Below, piece after piece: positions 4,814-53,400 of a DNA stretch of 64,000 bases. The stretch comes from Roseivirga sp. 4D4. GTDB lineage: Bacteria > Bacteroidota > Bacteroidia > Cytophagales > Cyclobacteriaceae. Under the pieces are notes generated by a model. It saw nothing but the letters and a program-made list of their open reading frames with translations. It ran no database searches and had not been told where the DNA came from. Position 1 is the stretch's first letter, and every line of letters starts with the position of its first letter. The stretch spans positions 3,393,001 to 3,457,000 of the forward strand of contig NZ_MDGP01000001.1 in the NCBI RefSeq assembly GCF_001747095.1. The letters run 5' to 3'. The translations under genes and the position numbers were made by a program.

Positions 4814-5977
4814 CTAAATCAAGGAAGCCGGCTTCAAAGAGATATCGATTGCCTTCCCATTTCGCATGATTTTCAATTTCACGGTGCCCTTGGCATTGGA
4901 TAAGTAGGCCACACATTCGTCATGGGTCATTCCCTTTTGGCCATCGACAGATACGATAATGTCGCCTAATTTGATTCCGGCTTTTTCACCGGACGAAGTA
5001 GCAATAACATTGACAACGGTCAGGGCACCATCCTCTTTCTTGAACTTCAATCCGCTTTTGTTTTCGCGATAGGGTTGATCGAACAGGCTATTGCGTTTGA
5101 TGTACATCACCTGTTTTTTGTAATCATAGATGGTGTTGAATCGCTTTAAGATTTCCAGTCCCAGAATGCCGTTGATATCGCTTCGTCCACTCACGCCATT
5201 GCGGACCGTGGCCATTCTCATCGGCACAGCATCAAACTTTTGACCTAAGACCTCATAAGTTTTCAAGCGCCCTATGTAGTCGGTAGCTTCATTGCCCAAT
5301 GCCTTTGAAGTGTATTTGTAATTGGGCGTGACTTTGTCCACCAATTCCTTTTCTCTCACCGTAGGTGAATTGATACGCAATGCCAGCGCTGCTCCAGTAT
5401 CGACTAGATAAGGACCTGTAATCACTTCGCCATCTTCGAGCAAAAGACTCGCATCAATTTTTGGCACGTTAAAGGGAACGAGGGAAATTTTATGAGCTTC
5501 ATAACCTTCGGGAGCAGGAAAATTATTTCTGGTGAAGAGATTGATTAATCCTTTTTCAAAATCCATTTCCACGGTATACCGATTTAAAACGTTTGCCCCG
5601 ATCACTGCGTCCAATGGATAGTCCTCATCGCCCAAGTGATCGAGATTCATCACCAGAAAGGTTTGATTCTTTAATTTGAGATCGTCCCCCAGCATCAGGT
5701 CATTATTAGTCGAACGCTTAATGGTTACAGGTCCGGAAGCGCCTAAAACGGTCTGCTCGCCCGATACGGTTAACCCGATTTCTTCGGCAACAGCTTCGCT
5801 CGCCAGATTGGCGGCAGCGCCTGTATCAAAAACAACATTGATCGGACGACCATCATTGACTTGTCCTTTGATATAGACATGACCCAGATGAATTTCAAAG
5901 GGTAAGGCGACAATTGGATCATTGGCCTTTACCACATGGCTAACCAGTAGGCAAAGGGACAGCACAAGAACTCTCAT
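4814..5977 (-). CDS. Secreted retropepsin-like aspartic protease with C-terminal PDZ domain
   Basis: Protein of 387 residues with a signal peptide ending near VVKA. It holds two retropepsin-like lobes in one chain, each with an active-site motif: FDTGAAAN near residue 50 and VDTGAALA near residue 190. A PDZ domain occupies roughly residues 300-380 (SGEKAGIKLGDIIVSVDGQ). Retropepsins normally dimerise to bring two Asp residues together; having both lobes in one chain suggests a self-contained pepsin-like active site. It probably works in the periplasm or at the cell surface. A paralogue with the same layout lies at 20344-21591. Substrates are unknown. Confidence 0.85.
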   Translation of the reverse strand: MRVLVLSLCLLVSHVVKANDPIVALPFEIHLGHVYIKGQVNDGRPINVVFDTGAAANLASEAVAEEIGLTVSGEQTVLGASGPVTIKRSTNNDLMLGDDLKLKNQTFLVMNLDHLGDEDYPLDAVIGANVLNRYTVEMDFEKGLINLFTRNNFPAPEGYEAHKISLVPFNVPKIDASLLLEDGEVITGPYLVDTGAALALRINSPTVREKELVDKVTPNYKYTSKALGNEATDYIGRLKTYEVLGQKFDAVPMRMATVRNGVSGRSDINGILGLEILKRFNTIYDYKKQVMYIKRNSLFDQPYRENKSGLKFKKEDGALTVVNVIATSSGEKAGIKLGDIIVSVDGQKGMTHDECVAYLSNAKGTVKLKIMRNGKAIDISLKPASLI

Positions 5978-20343: not shown

Positions 20344-21591
20344 TTATATCAGGTTCCTTAGCTCTATTTTCTTCTCTATTAACTTACCGTCTCTCTTAAC
20401 GACTATGGTGAGCACAGTTCCAGAGGGCTGTCTTAAAAGACTGTTCATACTGGCAAAAGAATAAAAGAATACCGGCTTGTCACCAATAGAAATGATCTCA
20501 TCACCAGGTTGGATGTCCATTTGCTGTGCCGGTGAATCAGGAATGATTTTAGCGACAAAATATCGGTTAAGCTCTTCACCAGAAACGTTAAACGTGAAGC
20601 CTGCTGTATTGAACTTGAAAGAGTTTTTATAGTTGTCGTTACGCTTTAGGTAGATCGCCTCGTTGAGGTAATCAAAAATGATGTTGAATCGAGACAATAC
20701 GTCAGAACCGATGGTACCATATCGCTTAATTTGCTTGGCATTTCCTTCAATTCCATCTACGACTTTCTTTACCTGCCAATTTTCAGGGAATGAAGTGACG
20801 ACTTTTGAAAACCTGAATTTTCTTCCAAAACGAAGACCCTGTACCCTACCAACTTTTCCTTCCAGTTCTCCAATCAAACTGCTGCCTAGAGAGTGGTCAA
20901 CTGTGTGCTTCGGAAGTACAATCTCTTCATGACGTTCCTGATCCAAAAACAGGGCGCTACTCGCACCGGTATCGATCAGTAAGTTCACTTCTTTTCTTCT
21001 TTGGCCTTTCTGCTTGATTTGAGCCTCGATATATGGGCGAAAATCGCGAATCTCTACATCTACTTTTCTAAAACCTTTAGGCGCCCTGAATTTATCTGGT
21101 TCGTAAAGGCGAAGCTTTTCGTTCTCATAGTCAACCTCCACCACAAAGCGATTAAACAGTTCCGAGCCCAAAATACCATGGGCTTCAACCCCTAGTACAT
21201 TACGGATGTCTGAGCCACTATCTTCCAATAACAACATGGATTGATCTTTTCCACTGACGCCATTGAGCTTGATGCTTAGGTTACTAGCCACGATCAAGTC
21301 GGTAATTTTATCTCCATTGCCAGCGTATATTGGAATGGTTCTGGCATTGGCCAGGTTATTATCGGCTATGACAAAACGATCGAAGATCATTCCCGATTCA
21401 GAGCCTGTATCTAGAATAAAGTTGAAGGGTCCCTCACCATTCACAAGAATAGGAACGATGATGAGGTTACTCTCATCTTTGAAGCTGAGTTCTACATATT
21501 GTTTGCCATCGTCAAAGGAGAAACCTAGCGAGTTTTGGGCAAAACTATTGATTGTAAAAAGTAACGCGAATGTCAGTATGGTATATCGCAT
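20344..21591 (-). CDS. Secreted retropepsin-like aspartic protease with PDZ domain (second copy)
   Basis: Protein of about 415 residues with a signal peptide MRYTILTFALLF...SFAQ; the start at 21591 is chosen because the longer frame to 21702 adds 37 residues before it and would run into the upstream gene. Two retropepsin lobes carry LDTGSESGM and LIDTGASSA, and a C-terminal PDZ domain (SPAQQMDIQPGDEIISIGD) follows. The layout is the same as the protein at 4814-5977, though sequence similarity is moderate. It is likely periplasmic. The role is unknown; many Bacteroidota carry several of these. Confidence 0.85.
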   Translation of the reverse strand: MRYTILTFALLFTINSFAQNSLGFSFDDGKQYVELSFKDESNLIIVPILVNGEGPFNFILDTGSESGMIFDRFVIADNNLANARTIPIYAGNGDKITDLIVASNLSIKLNGVSGKDQSMLLLEDSGSDIRNVLGVEAHGILGSELFNRFVVEVDYENEKLRLYEPDKFRAPKGFRKVDVEIRDFRPYIEAQIKQKGQRRKEVNLLIDTGASSALFLDQERHEEIVLPKHTVDHSLGSSLIGELEGKVGRVQGLRFGRKFRFSKVVTSFPENWQVKKVVDGIEGNAKQIKRYGTIGSDVLSRFNIIFDYLNEAIYLKRNDNYKNSFKFNTAGFTFNVSGEELNRYFVAKIIPDSPAQQMDIQPGDEIISIGDKPVFFYSFASMNSLLRQPSGTVLTIVVKRDGKLIEKKIELRNLI

Positions 21592-21661
21592 AGTAATGAT
21601 TTTGGTTGGAAGGCTGTTGAGCCAACTAATTAACACTAACGGACTATTCATACCCTTAGTT

Positions 21662-22096
21662 TTATTTGAAAACCCTCTTATAGATAGGTTTACGGTAAAC
21701 AAACTGCAAAAATAGCAAAGGATAGAGTAGAACGGTCATCATTTTATTATTGGCTTTATACTCAATGCTATCCACAATTTGACAGCCATCAGCATTGCCA
21801 ATCAGGATGTGGTGATGTTTCCAGAAACGGAACGGGAAGGGCAGTACAATTCCCTCATCGATAAACTCGAAACGATCCGGTGTTTCATTATCATAGGTGA
21901 TTTCACTGACCCACTTTTGCTTGCCAACTTTAAAGTCCAATAACAGCTCTACCAGGTCTCCTTTTAGGCAGCCATCGAACCTCAGTAGGGAGACCGAGGG
22001 AAACGGAGGGTTCAATTTCAGGAACAAGTCCTCATTAAAGCCAGCCTTCACTTGGGCTAAAGATTGCCGGACTTCTGTGGTCACCTTTACATGCAT
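21662..22096 (-). CDS. SRPBCC-family ligand-binding protein
   Basis: Protein of 144 residues without signal peptide. The pattern of an N-terminal strand (MHVKVTTEV), the FNEDLFLKLNPPFPSV helix region and DGCQIVDSIEYK resembles the START/SRPBCC-like group often described as ligand-binding proteins of the cyclase/dehydrase type. Such proteins bind hydrophobic small molecules, but no ligand is known for this one. It lies divergent from the TPR-CHAT gene, with 100 bases between start codons. The C-terminal hydrophobic stretch (LLYPLLFLQFVY) may touch the membrane. Confidence 0.65.
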   Translation of the reverse strand: MHVKVTTEVRQSLAQVKAGFNEDLFLKLNPPFPSVSLLRFDGCLKGDLVELLLDFKVGKQKWVSEITYDNETPDRFEFIDEGIVLPFPFRFWKHHHILIGNADGCQIVDSIEYKANNKMMTVLLYPLLFLQFVYRKPIYKRVFK

Positions 22097-22142: not shown

Positions 22143-22173
22143 TTTGTATGTTGAATGATTGTTCGTATCTTCA
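22143..22173 (+). promoter_or_regulatory. Candidate promoter of the TPR-CHAT gene
   Basis: TTTG at 22143-22146 and TATCTTCA at 22166-22173 are 19 bases apart, the spacing of Bacteroidota promoters; the -7 box matches four of six fixed positions. It overlaps the first in-frame ATG (22148), which argues that translation starts further down, at the GTG at 22199 or the ATG at 22232. Confidence 0.4.
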
Positions 22174-22198
22174 TTTAGATTCACCTCGACTAGTTAAA

Positions 22199-25100
22199 GT
22201 GTTTAAAATATACCCGCAGGTCATACGCTTAATGGCCTCTATACTCTTGTTATTGGCTACCCAAGGCATTATCCTATCACAAGAGCTTGCGCTTAAATCA
22301 AAATACGCCTATTCCACTCCGGCTCTGGATGCCGCTCAACAACTTTACAGTCAAAAGAAATACCCTGAAGCCCTAGCCGCTTTTGAAGCCATCATTGCTG
22401 AAGCCGAAGCACAGCAAAACTATGAGGAGGTCGTTTATGCAATGGAGAAGAAGGCCTTGGCGTTGAGGAGGCTGGGTAGGTATGATGGAGCTGTTTCTAC
22501 AATGGATCAGGCAATACTCCTAGCGAAGGGAAATTTACCTGGAGATCACTTTTTGATCTCTAAGATGTACTATACTCGAGGCTCTACCGATCATATTTTG
22601 CGTGACTACTATGACGCCAGAGCTTATATGGATACAGCCCAAATCTATTATGAGAATGCCAGCACCTATGATTCCACTGCGCACTACAGAATCATGGAAT
22701 ATAAATACTATGCTTATCAGTATTCTGAGGGCAGTCCTGACACCCTATTAAAGTACTTGGACAAACTGGTATTCCTAGAAAAAGCGAGAAATGGAAGCCC
22801 TAATCGCGTGAGCAACTTATTGCAAGGGTATCCTACAATCTTTATTCAGAAAGGAGACTTTAGTCAAGCTCTTGCTTATGCTATTCAAGCTTACAGGTTT
22901 GCCATTGAAAACAAGGATAGGATATCAACAAGATATTTTGTTGAAGCTCAATTCTATTTGACCCAAGTATTGTTCTACCGAAGAGATTTTAAAAGAGCAC
23001 TTGACATATCGAAGGAGGCAGTCCCCTTTTTGGAATCTACCCCGATAGACCAAATGCCAGAATATTACTCATTCAATAATTTGATTGGATTAATTCATAT
23101 GTCCTTAGGTGATAGCAAAACTGCTCTTGAGTATTTCAAGGTTGCAAGTGAAATACCATTGGGTGTAGGCGATATGTCTAACCAAAGGCAAAACTCTCTG
23201 TTTCAAGCAAGGCAGATGATTAATCTAGGACTATGTTACGAAAGCCTTGGCCAGATGGAAAAGGCGAAAACATATCTAGAGGGGTCATTAATAAAAATGA
23301 AAAACCTTATGACCTCTCCCAGCCCGAATCTTCATGACAACTATGAATATTTGGGAGATTTCTATTCAAGAGAGGCTAAGTTAAGTGATGCAATAACATC
23401 TTATGATTCCGCACTCAGAAATGGATTGTCATCATTTGACGGTGGGATACTTGATTTTCCCAGCACAAGTAAAACTGTCAATTATTCATTCGTTGATCTT
23501 AGAACTTTATCAAAGAAAGCAGAGAGTTTAAAGAGACAAGGAGTTAAAAATGATTTTGATAAGAAGTATTTGTTGGCGGCAAAAAAGTATGTGGAGCTTA
23601 CTGCTCAAGTCTTACTAAAAAATAGAGAAGAGTTTCTTGAATCTGAAGGGAAATTGTTTCTGAGTGAGAATTTCAAGAGGCTATATGAAACGGGAATTAG
23701 CACCAACTATGAGCTGTTCAGGCTTACTAAGGACAGGCGTTTTTTTGAGAATGCGATGTCCTTCGCAAGGCAAAGCAAGGCTATCCTATTCCTCGAACAG
23801 TCACATGAATTCACTTTAGTTAATAACAACTTTATTTCGCCTTCATTGAAAGAGGAATTTTTTAACTCCAAGAGTAATATTGAAAGGCTCCAACGTGCGT
23901 TTTATGAGCTAATTAATGTCTCAGTCACTGGTGATTCAATACTAAGTCTAAACGAAGAACTTTTAAAAGCGAGACTTGACAACGAAAATATCAAGAAAAG
24001 AATAAAAGAGGAGTTAAGAGGTTTTGACCGAGGAGAAGCATTTTTTGAAGGGCTATTACAAAACGAAGCAATGGGCAAACTCGAGGAAGGTCAGGCTCTT
24101 ATAGAGTTCTTTTTCGGTGTTGATCATGTTTATATACTTGGGAGAGACTTTGAAAATATAGCATTTCATCGAGTAGAGATAGATAGCTCATTGTTGAGCT
24201 CATTGAACTCTGTAATTACTCTAACTTCTAGGGCTCCAAAAGTCAAAAATATTCAAGAGGAATTTGAGGAGTTCTCAGAGAACGCGTTCTTTTTATATCG
24301 TGCGCTTATTGAACCGTCACTCAAGGACCTTGATGGTTCAATAGATAGACTTATTGTTGTTCCCGATGAAATATTATCTCGTCTAGCTTTTGGAGCCCTA
24401 GTTCAAAACCTGAATGGCTCAGAAAATAGCTTTGATCAACTACAATATTTGTTGTTGAAGTACAAGTTTCAATATCTACTTTCGTCAGAATTGTATGGAA
24501 ATAGAAAAGCTACTAGGAATGCAAGCGGTCAACTCCTAGGTATAGGTTTTAAAGAAAGCACTTCAGTCCATGAAGGCTACTCAATGGGTTCATTGCCTGG
24601 GACAGAAAAAGAAATAGCTTTTCTTCAGAGCAGTATTTCTGGAACCTACTTGCCAAATGGAACAAAAAAAGACTTTCTTAATAAAGCTCGTGATTATGAT
24701 GTTCTTCATTTAGCAGTGCATGGTAAAGCTGATAGTAGCAGTAGGTATGAGTCTAGCTTGATTTTTAATGGGGCCAGCGATAATGTATTGAACACTAATG
24801 ACTTGTATTTGGCAGGTCTTCAAGCCAGGTTGACCGTTTTAAGTGCATGTGAAAGTGGTCGAGGTCAAATTAATCAAGGGGAGGGGACTTTTAGTATAGC
24901 TCGCGGATTTGCTCTGGTTGGAATACCATCGATAGTAATGAGTCTTTGGAAGGTAAATGACAAGATTACATCAGAAATGATGGTAGATATGTACGATAAT
25001 TTTGTGAATCATGGTGTGGCAATAAATGATGCACTTCATGACTCTAAGTTACAGTACCTAGGATCTGGCGATGAGTATTCCGCGCACCCATACTATTGGG

Positions 25101-25243
25101 CTTCTTTCTTGCATTTAGGGGAAGATATAATGTTAGATAATGGAGACAATCTATTTAAAGACTACCTATGGTACGTCCTTACAACAATAATGTCTGGGGC
25201 TATACTTTATGTTGTTATACGAAGAAAAAGAAAAAGGGCTTAA
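22199..25243 (+). CDS. TPR-CHAT protease, secreted and anchored at C-terminus
   Basis: Protein of about 1000 residues. An N-terminal signal-like segment (LMASILLLLATQGIILSQ) leads to a long TPR-type helical region, a linker helix region and a C-terminal CHAT domain, a caspase-like cysteine protease fold. The catalytic pair is visible: His841 in LAVHGKAD and Cys884 in LSACESGRG (numbered from 22199). After CHAT a membrane helix (YVLTTIMSGAILYVVI) and the basic tail RRKRKRA suggest the protease faces the periplasm. The longer frame begins at 22148, but a candidate promoter overlaps that start. It is convergent with an anti-sigma/sigma pair, pointing to a role in signalling by cleavage (inference). 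Confidence 0.9.
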   Translation: MFKIYPQVIRLMASILLLLATQGIILSQELALKSKYAYSTPALDAAQQLYSQKKYPEALAAFEAIIAEAEAQQNYEEVVYAMEKKALALRRLGRYDGAVSTMDQAILLAKGNLPGDHFLISKMYYTRGSTDHILRDYYDARAYMDTAQIYYENASTYDSTAHYRIMEYKYYAYQYSEGSPDTLLKYLDKLVFLEKARNGSPNRVSNLLQGYPTIFIQKGDFSQALAYAIQAYRFAIENKDRISTRYFVEAQFYLTQVLFYRRDFKRALDISKEAVPFLESTPIDQMPEYYSFNNLIGLIHMSLGDSKTALEYFKVASEIPLGVGDMSNQRQNSLFQARQMINLGLCYESLGQMEKAKTYLEGSLIKMKNLMTSPSPNLHDNYEYLGDFYSREAKLSDAITSYDSALRNGLSSFDGGILDFPSTSKTVNYSFVDLRTLSKKAESLKRQGVKNDFDKKYLLAAKKYVELTAQVLLKNREEFLESEGKLFLSENFKRLYETGISTNYELFRLTKDRRFFENAMSFARQSKAILFLEQSHEFTLVNNNFISPSLKEEFFNSKSNIERLQRAFYELINVSVTGDSILSLNEELLKARLDNENIKKRIKEELRGFDRGEAFFEGLLQNEAMGKLEEGQALIEFFFGVDHVYILGRDFENIAFHRVEIDSSLLSSLNSVITLTSRAPKVKNIQEEFEEFSENAFFLYRALIEPSLKDLDGSIDRLIVVPDEILSRLAFGALVQNLNGSENSFDQLQYLLLKYKFQYLLSSELYGNRKATRNASGQLLGIGFKESTSVHEGYSMGSLPGTEKEIAFLQSSISGTYLPNGTKKDFLNKARDYDVLHLAVHGKADSSSRYESSLIFNGASDNVLNTNDLYLAGLQARLTVLSACESGRGQINQGEGTFSIARGFALVGIPSIVMSLWKVNDKITSEMMVDMYDNFVNHGVAINDALHDSKLQYLGSGDEYSAHPYYWASFLHLGEDIMLDNGDNLFKDYLWYVLTTIMSGAILYVVIRRKRKRA

Positions 25244-25251
25244 TAGCCCTT
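25221..25251 (-). terminator. Terminator of the sigma/anti-sigma operon inside the CHAT 3' end
   Basis: Hairpin AAGGGCT-TAAT-AGCCCTT at 25234-25251. On the minus strand it is followed by TTTTTCTTTTTC, a U-rich tract, so it should end the transcript coming from 26846. The stem spans the CHAT stop codon, so the two convergent units share the sequence. Confidence 0.7.
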
Positions 25252-25285
25252 CTTCTCGCGTGTATATGTGTGTGGAATAAAATTC

Positions 25286-26299
25286 TTACATTCTTTTGTC
25301 GAGAATAAAAGCAAAGCCTTTCCCATTTCTACCTTTGGCCTCACGTAAAATAATAAACTCAACAATGTCTCCATCTTGCAGACCAGTAATAGGGTCGTCT
25401 GTATGAAATCTGTATAGTTTTCTGGAATTGAAGTCTGATAACTCACCAAACTGGACCCTCCTCTGGTCAACGAACGAACCATCGGGAGAATCAATATCCG
25501 GCTCTTCCTCTATTATAATTATTGGTCCTTCACCTGCGGTTTCGAGAGTTTCATAACCCAATCGACTAAGTACCATTTTACTTCTTTTTTGGAATGACCC
25601 TTTTGAAAAGTTTAGGCCAACCAATGAAGTCAACGCTTCCTCCACTTTCTTATCAGCTAAAAGCGCCATACTCAAATACCATTTCGACTGATCTTTGAAA
25701 GTAGAGAAGTTATTCAGTGTAGTATTTAAGTTCTCAACGGCAGTTTTATAATCACCGATTTCTATATTGGCAATACCCATATAGAAGTAGTTTTCAGCGG
25801 TCTTTTCTACTTCTACTAAAGCTTCGAAGTTTTCAACTGCCAAGGCATAGTTACCTGCATCATAAGCACTGTAAGCAGCAGCACTCATTGATTCTGTTTC
25901 TATGGCTTCGCCCCTGACTTGTCCGTTAAGGTTATTATAAGGTTTGTAATATTCTGTAAATACGTCCTGCGGTGACGGTTGCCCGCTCCCGTTGAGGACA
26001 AAGTAGCTGACCGATACCATCAGTATCAGGCTGGCAGCCACGGTTAACATTCTTTTCATAGCAGTCTGATTGTTGTTAGTCGTCAATTCCTCTTGGTTGA
26101 GGGAGTCCTCGATGTCAGTCAGTAAGGACTTAATGTTTTTGCGGGCTTCTAATTTGACGGCAAGTTTAACCTCTTTGATCTCCTGAAATTCATGGTTGAA
26201 TTGTGGATCAGTCTTCAGCCTTTCATTAAAGGCTTTAAGTTCGCTTTTGTCAAGCTCATTGGAAAAGTATCTGTCTAGCAGATCAAAATTGCTCATCAT
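25286..26299 (-). CDS. Single-pass membrane TPR protein, probable anti-sigma factor
   Basis: Protein of 337 residues. The N-terminal 80 residues are cytosolic and resemble the anti-sigma segment of FecR-like proteins (FDLLDRYFSNELDKSE, then FNERLKTDPQF). One membrane helix (about 84-103, MLTVAASLILMVSVSYFVL) is followed by a periplasmic region with about three TPR-like repeats (140-245, with AYSAYDAGNYALAVENFEAL) and a C-terminal domain of about 80 residues after an acidic linker. It follows the sigma factor gene by 10 bases on the same strand. This gives the layout expected of a membrane anti-sigma with a periplasmic sensor. No catalytic motif is visible. Confidence 0.8.
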   Translation of the reverse strand: MMSNFDLLDRYFSNELDKSELKAFNERLKTDPQFNHEFQEIKEVKLAVKLEARKNIKSLLTDIEDSLNQEELTTNNNQTAMKRMLTVAASLILMVSVSYFVLNGSGQPSPQDVFTEYYKPYNNLNGQVRGEAIETESMSAAAYSAYDAGNYALAVENFEALVEVEKTAENYFYMGIANIEIGDYKTAVENLNTTLNNFSTFKDQSKWYLSMALLADKKVEEALTSLVGLNFSKGSFQKRSKMVLSRLGYETLETAGEGPIIIIEEEPDIDSPDGSFVDQRRVQFGELSDFNSRKLYRFHTDDPITGLQDGDIVEFIILREAKGRNGKGFAFILDKRM

Positions 26300-26309
26300 A
26301 AGGGTTTAC

Positions 26310-26846
26310 CTATAGTTGATTCTTTATTCTCTGGATACACTTGTATTTCAAATTCTTTACAGTGTTTCCATTTTTATATCTCATTACCTCGGCAATCTCA
26401 TCGTTGCTCAGGTTGTTGAAATAAAAAAGTCTTAGTATTTCACTACAGGGTTCTCCCAGCTCGGAAACGAGCTTTTTGATTTTATTAAGTCTGACCTCTT
26501 TCTCTGGATTTTCTTCTTCCAGTGCCTCGAAAAGCTCGTCTTCATCAATTTCTTCTTGATAAGAGATCTTTGAATTTTTTCGCGTGTCTGCGAGTAGCTT
26601 GTTCTTGCCGATAGAGTAGAGATAAGTCTTAATCCCTGCTTCATTCATTTCTTCAAATGACTCTTCTAGAACGTTTTCGTAGAAGGAGAGTATGGAGTAT
26701 TGAAAAATATCAACAGCCTCGTCATCGGTGCACTTGTGGGTATAGGTGATCCACTTTAAAAAACTGGCCCTATATTTCTTATAAATGTCCTCAAGTGCAG
26801 TACGATCACCGTTCCGCAATCGCAAGATCAACGAGTTTACACTCAT
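26310..26846 (-). CDS. ECF-like RNA polymerase sigma factor
   Basis: Sigma-70-family factor of 178 residues with regions 2 and 4 only. Region 2 includes DIYKKYRASFLKWI and the DIFQYSILSFYEN segment; region 4 carries the helix-turn-helix LSNDEIAEVMRYKNGNTVKNLKYKC. An acidic linker (EEIDEDELFEALEEENPEKE) separates them. The next gene downstream is a membrane TPR anti-sigma-like protein, and the TPR-CHAT protease gene converges on the pair. The preceding region (26847-27074) is very A/T-rich and holds GTCACCC and GGGTGAC 140 bases apart; no clear autoregulated promoter could be assigned. Confidence 0.88.
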   Translation of the reverse strand: MSVNSLILRLRNGDRTALEDIYKKYRASFLKWITYTHKCTDDEAVDIFQYSILSFYENVLEESFEEMNEAGIKTYLYSIGKNKLLADTRKNSKISYQEEIDEDELFEALEEENPEKEVRLNKIKKLVSELGEPCSEILRLFYFNNLSNDEIAEVMRYKNGNTVKNLKYKCIQRIKNQL

Positions 26847-27074
26847 GCTCTACTTCTTTAGTGATTAGGCAATTAAAAGGTCACCCAAAAGAGAGAGTTT
26901 TTTTTAAAAAAAATTCATGTTGGGGAGCAATTCTCATTATGAAAAAGGTAAAAGTCAAAAAATACTGGAAAAAGGCACATTTGGCCGTTTTTTTTAAAAT
27001 CTACGAAAAAAATATGGACTAAAAGGGTGACATTCGTCTAACCGAATCACTAATAATATACAAGTAGCTAATTT

Positions 27075-27575
27075 ATGGGTGCTAAGTCGTATTTTCTGAT
27101 TGACAACAAAATCCAACCAATGGACGAAGAGTTCGTGGATGGTGTTGAGAAAAAGGAAACCGTCTTCAACGATGTTTTATCAGAGATAACGATTCTCATT
27201 ATTGATGATAACCCCATTAACCTGATCGTGGCGGAGAAAACTTTAAAAAAGTTTGGAGCAAAATCAATTAAAGCACTTTCGGCTAAAGAGGGAATTCAAA
27301 AATTCTCTTCTGAAAAGGTCAACTTGGTGTTGATGGATTTGCATATGCCCGGTATAGATGGCTATAAGGGCACTAAGCTGCTTCACGAATCAGACAAGTA
27401 TAAGGAATCACCTGTTCCGGTATTGGCCTATACTACTTTTGCTTATGATGAGGTAAAAGAAAAAGTTGAGGCACACAAGCTCGATGGATATATTGGAAAG
27501 CCGTTTACTCAAGGTCAGGTTTTTGAAACTATCATGTCGGTTTTGAGCATTGAATCCGATTCAAAACAAGCTTAA
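27075..27575 (+). CDS. Single-domain response regulator (CheY-like)
   Basis: Protein of 166 residues: about 38 residues of N-terminal extension, then a receiver domain. The acidic pocket is IIDDNP (residues 43-46), the phospho-acceptor is Asp88 in LMDLHMPG, and the conserved Lys lies in YIGKPF. There is no output domain, so it should act through protein contacts. No histidine kinase is adjacent, making it an orphan. The neighbouring sigma/anti-sigma operon is divergent and shares the upstream region, so a link to it is possible but unproven. Confidence 0.87.
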   Translation: MGAKSYFLIDNKIQPMDEEFVDGVEKKETVFNDVLSEITILIIDDNPINLIVAEKTLKKFGAKSIKALSAKEGIQKFSSEKVNLVLMDLHMPGIDGYKGTKLLHESDKYKESPVPVLAYTTFAYDEVKEKVEAHKLDGYIGKPFTQGQVFETIMSVLSIESDSKQA

Positions 27576-51779: not shown

Positions 51780-52367
51780 TTGACCATCGTGCACGACCAA
51801 GACGAGATCAGGCTTCAACAGCAACTGTCGCAAGGCAGTGAAAAGGCCTTTGAAGAGGTTTTTCAAGCCTACTTCAAGGTACTTACCGTATTCTCAAAAA
51901 AGTTTGTGCAAGACTTGAGTGTGGCTGAGGATTTGGTTCAAGAGGTTTTGCTCAAACTTTATGAAAACAGAAGGTCCATCCAATTTCACACTTCGCTTAA
52001 AGCGTTTCTCTTTCAATCGGTTAGAAACAAATCAATCGACTATCTGCGGTCGTTAAAGTCAAAGTCAGATCATCACGATCAATTCAAATTATTGAGTGTT
52101 GCAGAGTCTGCCGACTGGAATGACACGATGGAACAATCCGAACTTGAAGAAAGGATTGCGAAAGCGATTTCAGTATTGCCAGATCAGTGCCAGTTAATCT
52201 TTAAGATGAGTCGCTTTGACGGAAAGCGGAATCAGGAGATTGCAGAAGAACTGGATATCTCAAAAAGAACAGTAGAAACGCAGGTGAGTAATGCCTTGAA
52301 GCGATTGAGAAAAGATGTACTGCCGTACGTCAATCTCTTGATTATAATCCTTTCAAGGCTGTTTTAG
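51780..52367 (+). CDS. ECF sigma factor, FecI-like (Bacteroidota family)
   Basis: Sigma factor of about 195 residues with region 2 (FEEVFQAYFKVLTVFSKKFVQD, split here at conserved AEDLVQEVLLKLYEN) and region 4 (LPDQCQLIFKMSRFDGK and EIAEELDISKRTVETQVSNALKR). These belong to the sigma-70 ECF group paired with FecR in Bacteroidota. The frame opens with TTG at 51780; a GTG at 51789 is an alternative. The FecR gene follows 61 bases later on the same strand. No promoter could be assigned. Confidence 0.9.
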   Translation: MTIVHDQDEIRLQQQLSQGSEKAFEEVFQAYFKVLTVFSKKFVQDLSVAEDLVQEVLLKLYENRRSIQFHTSLKAFLFQSVRNKSIDYLRSLKSKSDHHDQFKLLSVAESADWNDTMEQSELEERIAKAISVLPDQCQLIFKMSRFDGKRNQEIAEELDISKRTVETQVSNALKRLRKDVLPYVNLLIIILSRLF

Positions 52368-52428
52368 TAAATTTTTTGAAGGGACTTACGTGTGTTTTTC
52401 ACTAGGCTCGTCATAATGTTGAAAGTTA

Positions 52429-53400
52429 ATGAAAGAAAAGGCCATCATATCGGATCATTTATTGATCGACTACTTGAAGCAAGAGACTAGTGCCGAGGAG
52501 AACAGGCAAGTGGAAGATTGGCTTAATAGCGATCCTGCAAATCAGTTAGAACTGGATAAGATAAGATTGGTTTGGGAAAAGTCAGAAAGCTTAAAGGACT
52601 TTGAAGCGATAGATCTAGATAAGAACTGGCGATCCATTCGAGGTAAAATCGGTCAAAATGAGAAAGGCGTAGGCTCTAAGTGGCAAATCTGGAAGTATGC
52701 CGCTGCAGTCTTATTGATTGCAGCAATTTCAGTCTTTCTACTCAGGCCAGGAGAGGTCATAATGAGGCAGGCGATGGCCTCAACTGATCCCCTAGAAGTG
52801 GTTTTGGCGGATGGTTCAACCGTTTGGCTAAACGAGGGAGCTACGCTAGACTATCCTGAGGAATTTTCTACCTCTACCAGAGAAGTGACACTAAGTGGAG
52901 AAGCATATTTTGATATTGCTCACAATCCTGAAAAGCCTTTTAGGGTGATGGCCGATGGCACAACAACTGAAGTGTTGGGAACCACTTTCACGGTGAGCGA
53001 GGGAGAGGGTGAATCTCTGGAGCTTGTATTGGCAACGGGTAAGGTGCGCTTTACAAAAGGGAATCAAAGAGTCACACTGACACCAGGACAAATGGTTGTG
53101 GTCGATGCGAAAGGTGAGGTGACCAAAAGGGATAATGACAACCCAAACTTTATGTCATGGAAAACCCGCACACTTACTTTTGAGGATGCACCAATGAAAG
53201 AAGTGATTGGTGAAATCTCAAGCTTATATAATGTAGTGCTTGAGATTGAAGATAAGGACTTTTTGGACTGTCCACTGACTACTACGTTTGAAAACGAGTC
53301 CCTTGATGGTGTGCTCGAGACTATAGCGCTACTTTTTAATATAGAAATAAAACAAAATGGTCAACTCTATCAATTGAGTGGAAAGGGCTGCGAATTTTAG
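52429..53400 (+). CDS. FecR-family anti-sigma factor
   Basis: Protein of 323 residues. The cytosolic N-terminus binds sigma, a helix lies at about 89-106 (YAAAVLLIAAISVFLL), then the FecR domain (LADGSTVWLNEGATLDYP and VTLSGEAYFDIAH) and a C-terminal DUF4974 domain (LTFEDAPMKEVIGEIS, with a late Cys) follow in the periplasm. This layout is that of FecR proteins that receive a signal from an STN domain at the outer membrane. Here the STN domain appears to sit on the protein encoded at 54203, not on a TonB receptor. Confidence 0.93.
   Translation: MKEKAIISDHLLIDYLKQETSAEENRQVEDWLNSDPANQLELDKIRLVWEKSESLKDFEAIDLDKNWRSIRGKIGQNEKGVGSKWQIWKYAAAVLLIAAISVFLLRPGEVIMRQAMASTDPLEVVLADGSTVWLNEGATLDYPEEFSTSTREVTLSGEAYFDIAHNPEKPFRVMADGTTTEVLGTTFTVSEGEGESLELVLATGKVRFTKGNQRVTLTPGQMVVVDAKGEVTKRDNDNPNFMSWKTRTLTFEDAPMKEVIGEISSLYNVVLEIEDKDFLDCPLTTTFENESLDGVLETIALLFNIEIKQNGQLYQLSGKGCEF

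Follow-up and report, generated by a model that had tools for sequence, protein, structure and literature searches.

The locus at positions 22148 to 26846 of a 64,000-nucleotide stretch of the Roseivirga sp. 4D4 genome (contig NZ_MDGP01000001.1, positions 3,393,001 to 3,457,000; hereafter the window) raises the question of why a CHAT-family protein with tetratricopeptide repeats (TPR) is encoded beside an extracytoplasmic function (ECF) sigma factor and a membrane-spanning, anti-sigma-like protein. What is known of CHAT proteases comes mainly from CRISPR and defence settings, and we know of no substrate for most of them. A first-pass annotation, made from the DNA letters, had proposed that the CHAT protease cuts the anti-sigma factor and thereby frees the sigma factor. 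The sequence comparisons described here support this interpretation, and we regard it as likely that the locus encodes a free-standing periplasmic CHAT protease that would serve as site-1 protease for its cognate anti-sigma factor, cutting between Arg129 and Gly130. The argument is built on the following features of the window.

22148..25243, plus strand: predicted TPR-CHAT protease, an open reading frame (ORF) of 1031 amino acids (aa) with PF12770; from N- to C-terminus an export signal, a TPR array, the CHAT domain (aa 716-992), a transmembrane segment and the basic tail RRKRKRA
24611..24613, plus strand: CHAT Glu822, candidate S1-pocket acid reading a P1 Arg, by covariation with the linker residue
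24719..24721, plus strand: CHAT His858, catalytic by conservation (74/74)
24848..24850, plus strand: CHAT Cys901, catalytic by conservation (74/74)
25286..26299, minus strand: anti-sigma-like protein, 337 aa; N-terminal helices (predicted cytoplasmic), a transmembrane segment at about aa 84-102, a linker to aa 137, TPR at 138-246 and a beta domain at 255-335
25913..25915, minus strand: anti-sigma Arg129 in the juxtamembrane linker (..NLNGQVR/GE.., the slash marking the putative cut), candidate P1 of CHAT cleavage
26310..26846, minus strand: ECF sigma factor, 178 aa, TIGR02937

The three ORFs are those described by the first-pass annotation, the CHAT gene being convergent with the pair of anti-sigma-like and sigma genes. 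Its start lies at 22148, upstream of the previously noted 22199; the latter is a later in-frame GTG of the same ORF, and the cysteine formerly numbered 884 is therefore Cys901 here. PF12770 matches the CHAT domain with an E-value of 4.5e-48 (164.6 bits, cut-off 24), and several TPR models of Pfam also match the protein. The His/Cys pair is intact as noted earlier: His858 and Cys901 are present in all 74 complete CHAT homologues of at least 800 aa. The sigma factor belongs to the ECF class, as had been suggested, with 66.5 bits against a cut-off of 42.9 for the sigma70-ECF model TIGR02937; assignments of this protein to AbiEi and PglZ by PADLOC are weak matches and were discarded. The anti-sigma-like protein, co-encoded with the sigma factor, has one transmembrane segment and weak TPR matches, in agreement with the single-pass protein and TPR-like periplasmic part proposed before. 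Its matches to known anti-sigma families are weak too and far below the cut-offs (NF047528, 25.2 bits, cut-off 200; NF052375, 21.4 bits, cut-off 100). Judged by these assignments, the locus joins a protein of the CHAT family to an ECF sigma factor and a likely anti-sigma factor.

Topology was read from a Kyte-Doolittle scan rather than a trained predictor. Among 81 CHAT ORFs of at least 600 aa, a few of which are contig-edge fragments, a hydrophobic segment is found N-terminally in 69 and C-terminally in 75, and the tail is net-basic in 78. The scan thus recovers the export signal and the C-terminal membrane helix with basic tail that were noted before. Given hydrophobic segments at both ends and the basic tail, the CHAT enzyme is predicted to be periplasmic and tethered to the inner membrane. 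Its CHAT domain would then lie on the same side as the TPR part of the anti-sigma factor; a cytosolic CHAT domain, named earlier as a finding that would contradict the proposal, is not what the scan predicts. The AlphaFold2 model of the CHAT protein has a mean pLDDT (predicted local distance difference test) of 85.2, and the closest solved folds are Csx29 and separase. A profile search of PDB sequences with the whole protein gave TPR proteins among the matches listed (best 60 of 322); a profile of the CHAT domain only was informative. The model of the anti-sigma-like protein (mean pLDDT 72.5) consists of N-terminal helices, a low-confidence transmembrane and linker region, TPRs and a C-terminal beta domain. 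We note that proteins differ in length around this beta domain (about aa 255-335; 25286-25537, minus strand): genus orthologues have 324-346 aa, other relatives mostly 229-282 aa.

The linkage of the three genes is conserved. The source genome has 41 sigma70-ECF matches above the cut-off and two CHAT genes, both of which are convergent with an anti-sigma/sigma pair, an adjacency that is more than chance. The second, paralogous trio (L033, G000:C1:2988122-2992816) consists of a CHAT protein of 1126 aa convergent with an anti-sigma factor of 237 aa and a sigma factor of 192 aa; it also has a linker Arg, and Glu at CHAT residue 822. The orthologous trio stands together in 13 of 19 genomes of the genus. 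CHAT and the pair are both present 20-200 kb apart in three (G003, G005, G014), the pair occurs without CHAT in one (G002), and two genomes that are 80-84% complete have neither. Together with paralogous trios beyond the genus, this bears out the conserved neighbourhood on which the earlier proposal depended. In G002 the flanking genes are in their usual order and CHAT alone is missing, with 35 bases separating the two flanking genes; no CHAT domain was found elsewhere in that genome. Its sigma and anti-sigma factors (L093, G002:C9:753000-771000) are the most diverged among the genus orthologues.

Three larger samples extend the survey. The first set is made up of the window and 100 fetched regions, of which 40 were picked via CHAT and 60 via anti-sigma or sigma. 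Here CHAT lies within 3 kb of 66 of 95 anti-sigma-like genes, in convergent (44), divergent (12), co-directional downstream (8) or upstream (2) orientation. The order-wide set consists of 80 anti-sigmas drawn via the anti-sigma profile. In 28 cases CHAT is found within 3 kb: 15 lie downstream and 3 upstream in the same direction, 9 are convergent and 1 is divergent. The named set comprises the best 80 loci found via CHAT; an anti-sigma at E <1e-20 is present in 40 of them, 31 of these with CHAT within 3 kb, and the loci with an anti-sigma include Saprospiraceae, Flavobacteriia and Bacteroidales.

The candidate cleavage site emerges from an alignment of 86 of the 95 anti-sigmas of the first set (matches with E >1e-40, proteins below 200 aa and fragment ends were dropped). 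Arg129 is kept in 81 of the 86 and is tied for second most conserved column, while its spacing varies from 19 to 30 residues to the transmembrane segment and from 11 to 21 to Tyr146 of the TPR part. The preceding residue is variable; the next is Gly (47), Ser (18), Asp (9) or Asn (6) in 80 of 86 proteins. As far as an alignment can tell, this combination of a near-invariant Arg, a small residue after it and a varying linker length is what a protease P1 position looks like. In the first and order-wide sets together (166 anti-sigmas in all), position 129 of the 93 CHAT-adjacent proteins (CHAT within 3 kb) is Arg in 76, Met in 16 and Leu in one. Ten anti-sigmas come from CHAT-less genomes (nine order-wide plus G002) and have Arg once, Leu twice, Met never and another residue or gap in seven; the lone Arg (G185) may be a misalignment and was counted as Arg. 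The difference in Arg or Met between both groups gives a Fisher value of 4e-11, with relatedness ignored. In G002, where CHAT was lost, the linker Arg is gone as well. The CHAT-less genomes of family f13 (e.g. L219, L222, L232, L238, L240) keep a related anti-sigma, whose linkers show YY..PDPG-like remnants with neither Met nor Arg at the aligned position.

The identity of this linker residue covaries with CHAT residue 822. Each CHAT-adjacent anti-sigma was paired with the nearest CHAT of at least 600 aa, which retains 91 of the 93 proteins (53 genomes, 88 distinct CHATs; shorter CHAT ORFs were dropped). Of the 74 Arg pairs, 73 have Glu at residue 822 and one has Arg; all 17 Met/Leu pairs have Leu, Ala or Ser there, never an acidic residue. 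Column 822 is the only one of 935 CHAT columns without a residue common to both classes, and in the reverse test anti-sigma column 129 is the best of 235 at separating Glu from non-Glu partners. In a CHAT tree built without column 822 the Met/Leu partners fall into four clades, each without Glu822. The rule extends to two Met-class anti-sigmas farther from CHAT (3.8 and 4.2 kb), whose partners have Ser and Leu at 822. Met/Leu-class linkers read, for example, PDPGLVTAM(G/S) or TTM(G/S), with Leu, Ala or Ser at CHAT 822; the loci are L074, L182, L183, L189, L196, L204, L206, L207, L208, L209, L210, L215, L216, L218, L221, L230 and L236.

The two further samples show mostly the Arg-Glu combination. 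A realignment of the named set (200-420 aa, E <=1e-20) gives, for 40 anti-sigmas, 36 Arg-Glu, one Lys-Glu, one Met-Asn, one Gln-Glu and one Ser-Glu; at least five rows (L243, L245, L246, L266, L305) repeat the first set, and in the Gln-Glu row, which reads SITRQTD, an Arg adjoins the column. Of 26 anti-sigmas read in the phylum set, 25 have Arg and one Met; seven loci have a CHAT-domain ORF, with Glu at 822 in six. Locus L339 has a second CHAT fragment with Ser at 822 and no dyad; in L336 the program placed Arg at this column, but inspection by eye pairs ATKEARAI with AQREAREI through its Glu. Csx29 has His at this column in a weak alignment, from which we draw no conclusion. In the AlphaFold2 model, residue 822 starts the helix 819-829, which follows the strand 794-800 and precedes the strands 832-835 and 850-856 and then His858. 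We take this to be the position where clan CD proteases (caspases, legumain, MALT1) carry an S1 residue. The covariation of 129 and 822 is as expected for P1 and S1 and supports their pairing at the level of sequence.

The regulatory output was approached through a motif, common by eye to the upstream regions of 16 orthologous sigma genes. The features concerned are as follows.

26858..26886, minus strand: promoter-like motif GGGTGAC-N15-WCAYTAA, 5' of the sigma/anti-sigma operon, possible autoregulation
27025..27053, plus strand: second, divergent motif copy, 5' of the receiver-domain gene, from the pattern search
27075..27575, plus strand: receiver-domain protein, possibly co-regulated, 166 aa, PF00072 with 2.2e-18

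GGGTGAC-N15-WCAYTAA has 13 exact copies in 12 genomes, nine of them of the genus. Twelve copies are in the interval that separates the sigma gene from the divergent receiver-domain gene in seven genus genomes, usually one facing each gene; the remaining copy is at another place (G003 C8). Allowing one mismatch gives 38 matches against 57 for a reversed-pattern control, so it is the exact copies alone that stand out. A stricter first pattern gave no match in the window at three mismatches, as the spacing there is one base off. Each of the 17 genus genomes with the locus fetched, the CHAT-less G002 included, has the receiver-domain gene next to sigma. Inspection by eye of the 130 bases upstream of 26 CHAT genes showed no sigma-type motif, and across 12 genomes no pattern match fell at the orthologous CHAT start. 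CHAT was accordingly rejected as a member of the sigma regulon.

A mechanism that would join these observations is a dedicated envelope signalling module of three genes. The single-pass protein would hold the ECF sigma factor via its cytoplasmic N-terminus. The TPR-CHAT protein would be exported and stay tethered to the inner membrane through its C-terminal helix, and its caspase/separase-like domain would therefore face the periplasm. The TPR arrays would probably sense an envelope cue, on which CHAT would cut the flexible linker that joins the transmembrane segment to the TPR domain. The bond cut would be that between Arg129 and Gly130, and the TPR part would be shed. Specificity may reside in a match of P1 and S1: a linker Arg would go with CHAT Glu822, a linker Met with a Leu, Ala or Ser at that position. 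The cut would leave about 27 residues outside the membrane segment; a stub of this length is typical of a site-1 product (RseA). An RseP homologue is encoded in the genome, and a site-2 protease of this type could take the stub and free the sigma factor. The likely targets of sigma are its own operon and the divergently oriented receiver-domain gene.

Several observations weigh against this mechanism. Six of the ten CHAT-less genomes belong to one family, and 52 of the 80 order-wide relatives are without CHAT within 3 kb, some of them near contig ends. The Met clades number only four, so that the covariation reflects few independent events. One pair (G016) combines Arg129 with Arg822 in a 667-aa CHAT, and one linker (L299) is without Arg or Met yet faces Glu822. 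Low model confidence (pLDDT <50 at aa 93-114 and 116-135) also covers the transmembrane segment of the anti-sigma factor and hence is weak evidence for linker disorder. We infer the lining of the S1 pocket by residue 822 from the order of strands and helices in the model, and the anti-sigma role is suggested by position, topology and weak family matches.

In addition, Arg129 and Glu822 could form a docking salt bridge rather than a P1/S1 pair. CHAT would then touch the linker directly and mainly dock or sense, with non-proteolytic release or holding of the anti-sigma factor. Covariation in itself indicates contact, not cutting, and TPR proteins usually bind peptides; we nevertheless consider docking unlikely, as His858 and Cys901 are invariant among the complete homologues, the site has a near-invariant P1 and a small P1' in a linker of variable length, and Met combined with Leu, Ala or Ser at 822 suits a pocket better than a salt bridge. 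CHAT might also be an effector or downstream protease that travels with the sigma pair, for instance as part of the regulon or as a cell-death protease that acts on a different substrate. CHAT proteases do occur in defence and cell-death systems, and the three genus genomes with CHAT and pair far apart fit such a role. The motif-free CHAT upstream regions, the covariation of P1 and S1 and the loss of the linker Arg in G002 make it improbable.

A third explanation is that another periplasmic, Arg-specific protease cuts the linker while CHAT tunes the process, Arg129 being kept for that protease or for TPR folding. Arg129 is also present in 44 of the 64 anti-sigmas that have no CHAT within 3 kb and come from genomes not scored CHAT-less (the group includes G002), which points in this direction and likewise counts against cleavage by CHAT. 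However, the differences between Arg and Met coincide with the absence of Glu822 in four clades, and nine of the ten proteins from CHAT-less genomes have neither Arg nor Met; we give this explanation very little credence. Cleavage of the linker by CHAT is the reading we retain.

How the module relates to known systems is best described by analogy: it would act like Csx29-Csx30-CASP-sigma or like DegS-RseA, as a member of neither. To our knowledge, the former has no membrane parts, whereas the layout here is predicted to be periplasmic, mostly with Arg at the predicted P1. The likeness to Csx29 and Csx30 drawn by the first-pass annotation holds for the mechanism and fails for type III-E membership: the Csx29 model NF041237 scores 22.3 bits against a cut-off of 300. 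There is no Cas7-11 (RAMP) match to PF03787 in the genome, and no CRISPR array was indicated by direct repeats of at least 22 bases within 120 bases at 10000-40000, the part of the genome searched, in keeping with the earlier view of a locus free of CRISPR parts. Membership in type III-E CASP/Craspase was therefore rejected. The type III-E system (DiCASP; PMC10028731) is RNA-triggered via Cas7-11.

DegS-RseA-RseP shares with the present locus a membrane anti-sigma factor, a near-membrane periplasmic cut (predicted here) and an RseP-type site-2 protease. Its site-1 enzyme is the serine protease DegS, in contrast to a predicted CHAT cysteine protease encoded beside its substrate. Separase, of clan CD, is a eukaryotic cohesin protease. 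DdvA, a 'transmembrane anti-sigma factor' (PDB 8rot, 8rw5) presumably from Myxococcus, may combine anti-sigma and TPR-CHAT in one chain, to judge from titles and length. In the ECF54 group CHAT genes are found near ECF sigma factors and proteolytic control has been proposed (PMC8999054), there without an anti-sigma factor, whereas here the anti-sigma-like protein carries the predicted site. This proposal and Csx29-Csx30-CASP-sigma are the nearest published statements, as far as the accessible text of these sources goes. Literature searches on CHAT, anti-sigma, ECF and periplasm, including the accessible part of PMC7889193 and with subscription literature largely outside, found no account of a CHAT protease in the periplasm that targets an anti-sigma factor, a negative that is no proof of novelty for the pairing.

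Beyond this locus, we lean towards the view that membrane-tethered periplasmic site-1 CHAT proteases with cognate anti-sigmas are widespread in Bacteroidota and share a recodable P1/S1 pair (Arg-Glu822 or Met-Leu/Ala/Ser), with several protease/anti-sigma pairs in some genomes and Csx29-Csx30-sigma as a CRISPR-captured relative. Sequence comparison predicts substrate, bond and pocket residue for many pairs in the phylum. If true, Bacteroidota gain a dedicated class of site-1 proteases for ECF signalling, an origin is suggested for the sigma-release wiring of type III-E systems, and a natural collection of Arg- and Met-specific protease/substrate pairs is at hand.

Further genes of the window resemble parts of the locus. 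At 51780-53400 on the plus strand lie another ECF sigma factor (195 aa) and a single-pass anti-sigma-like protein (323 aa), the latter matching the anti-sigma profile weakly; the closest CHAT gene found is that at 22148-25243, about 27 kb away. The ORFs at 20344-21702 and 4814-5977, both on the minus strand, are related to each other (9e-23). The former matches aspartyl protease and PDZ models, and its orthologues adjoin the CHAT locus in the genus.

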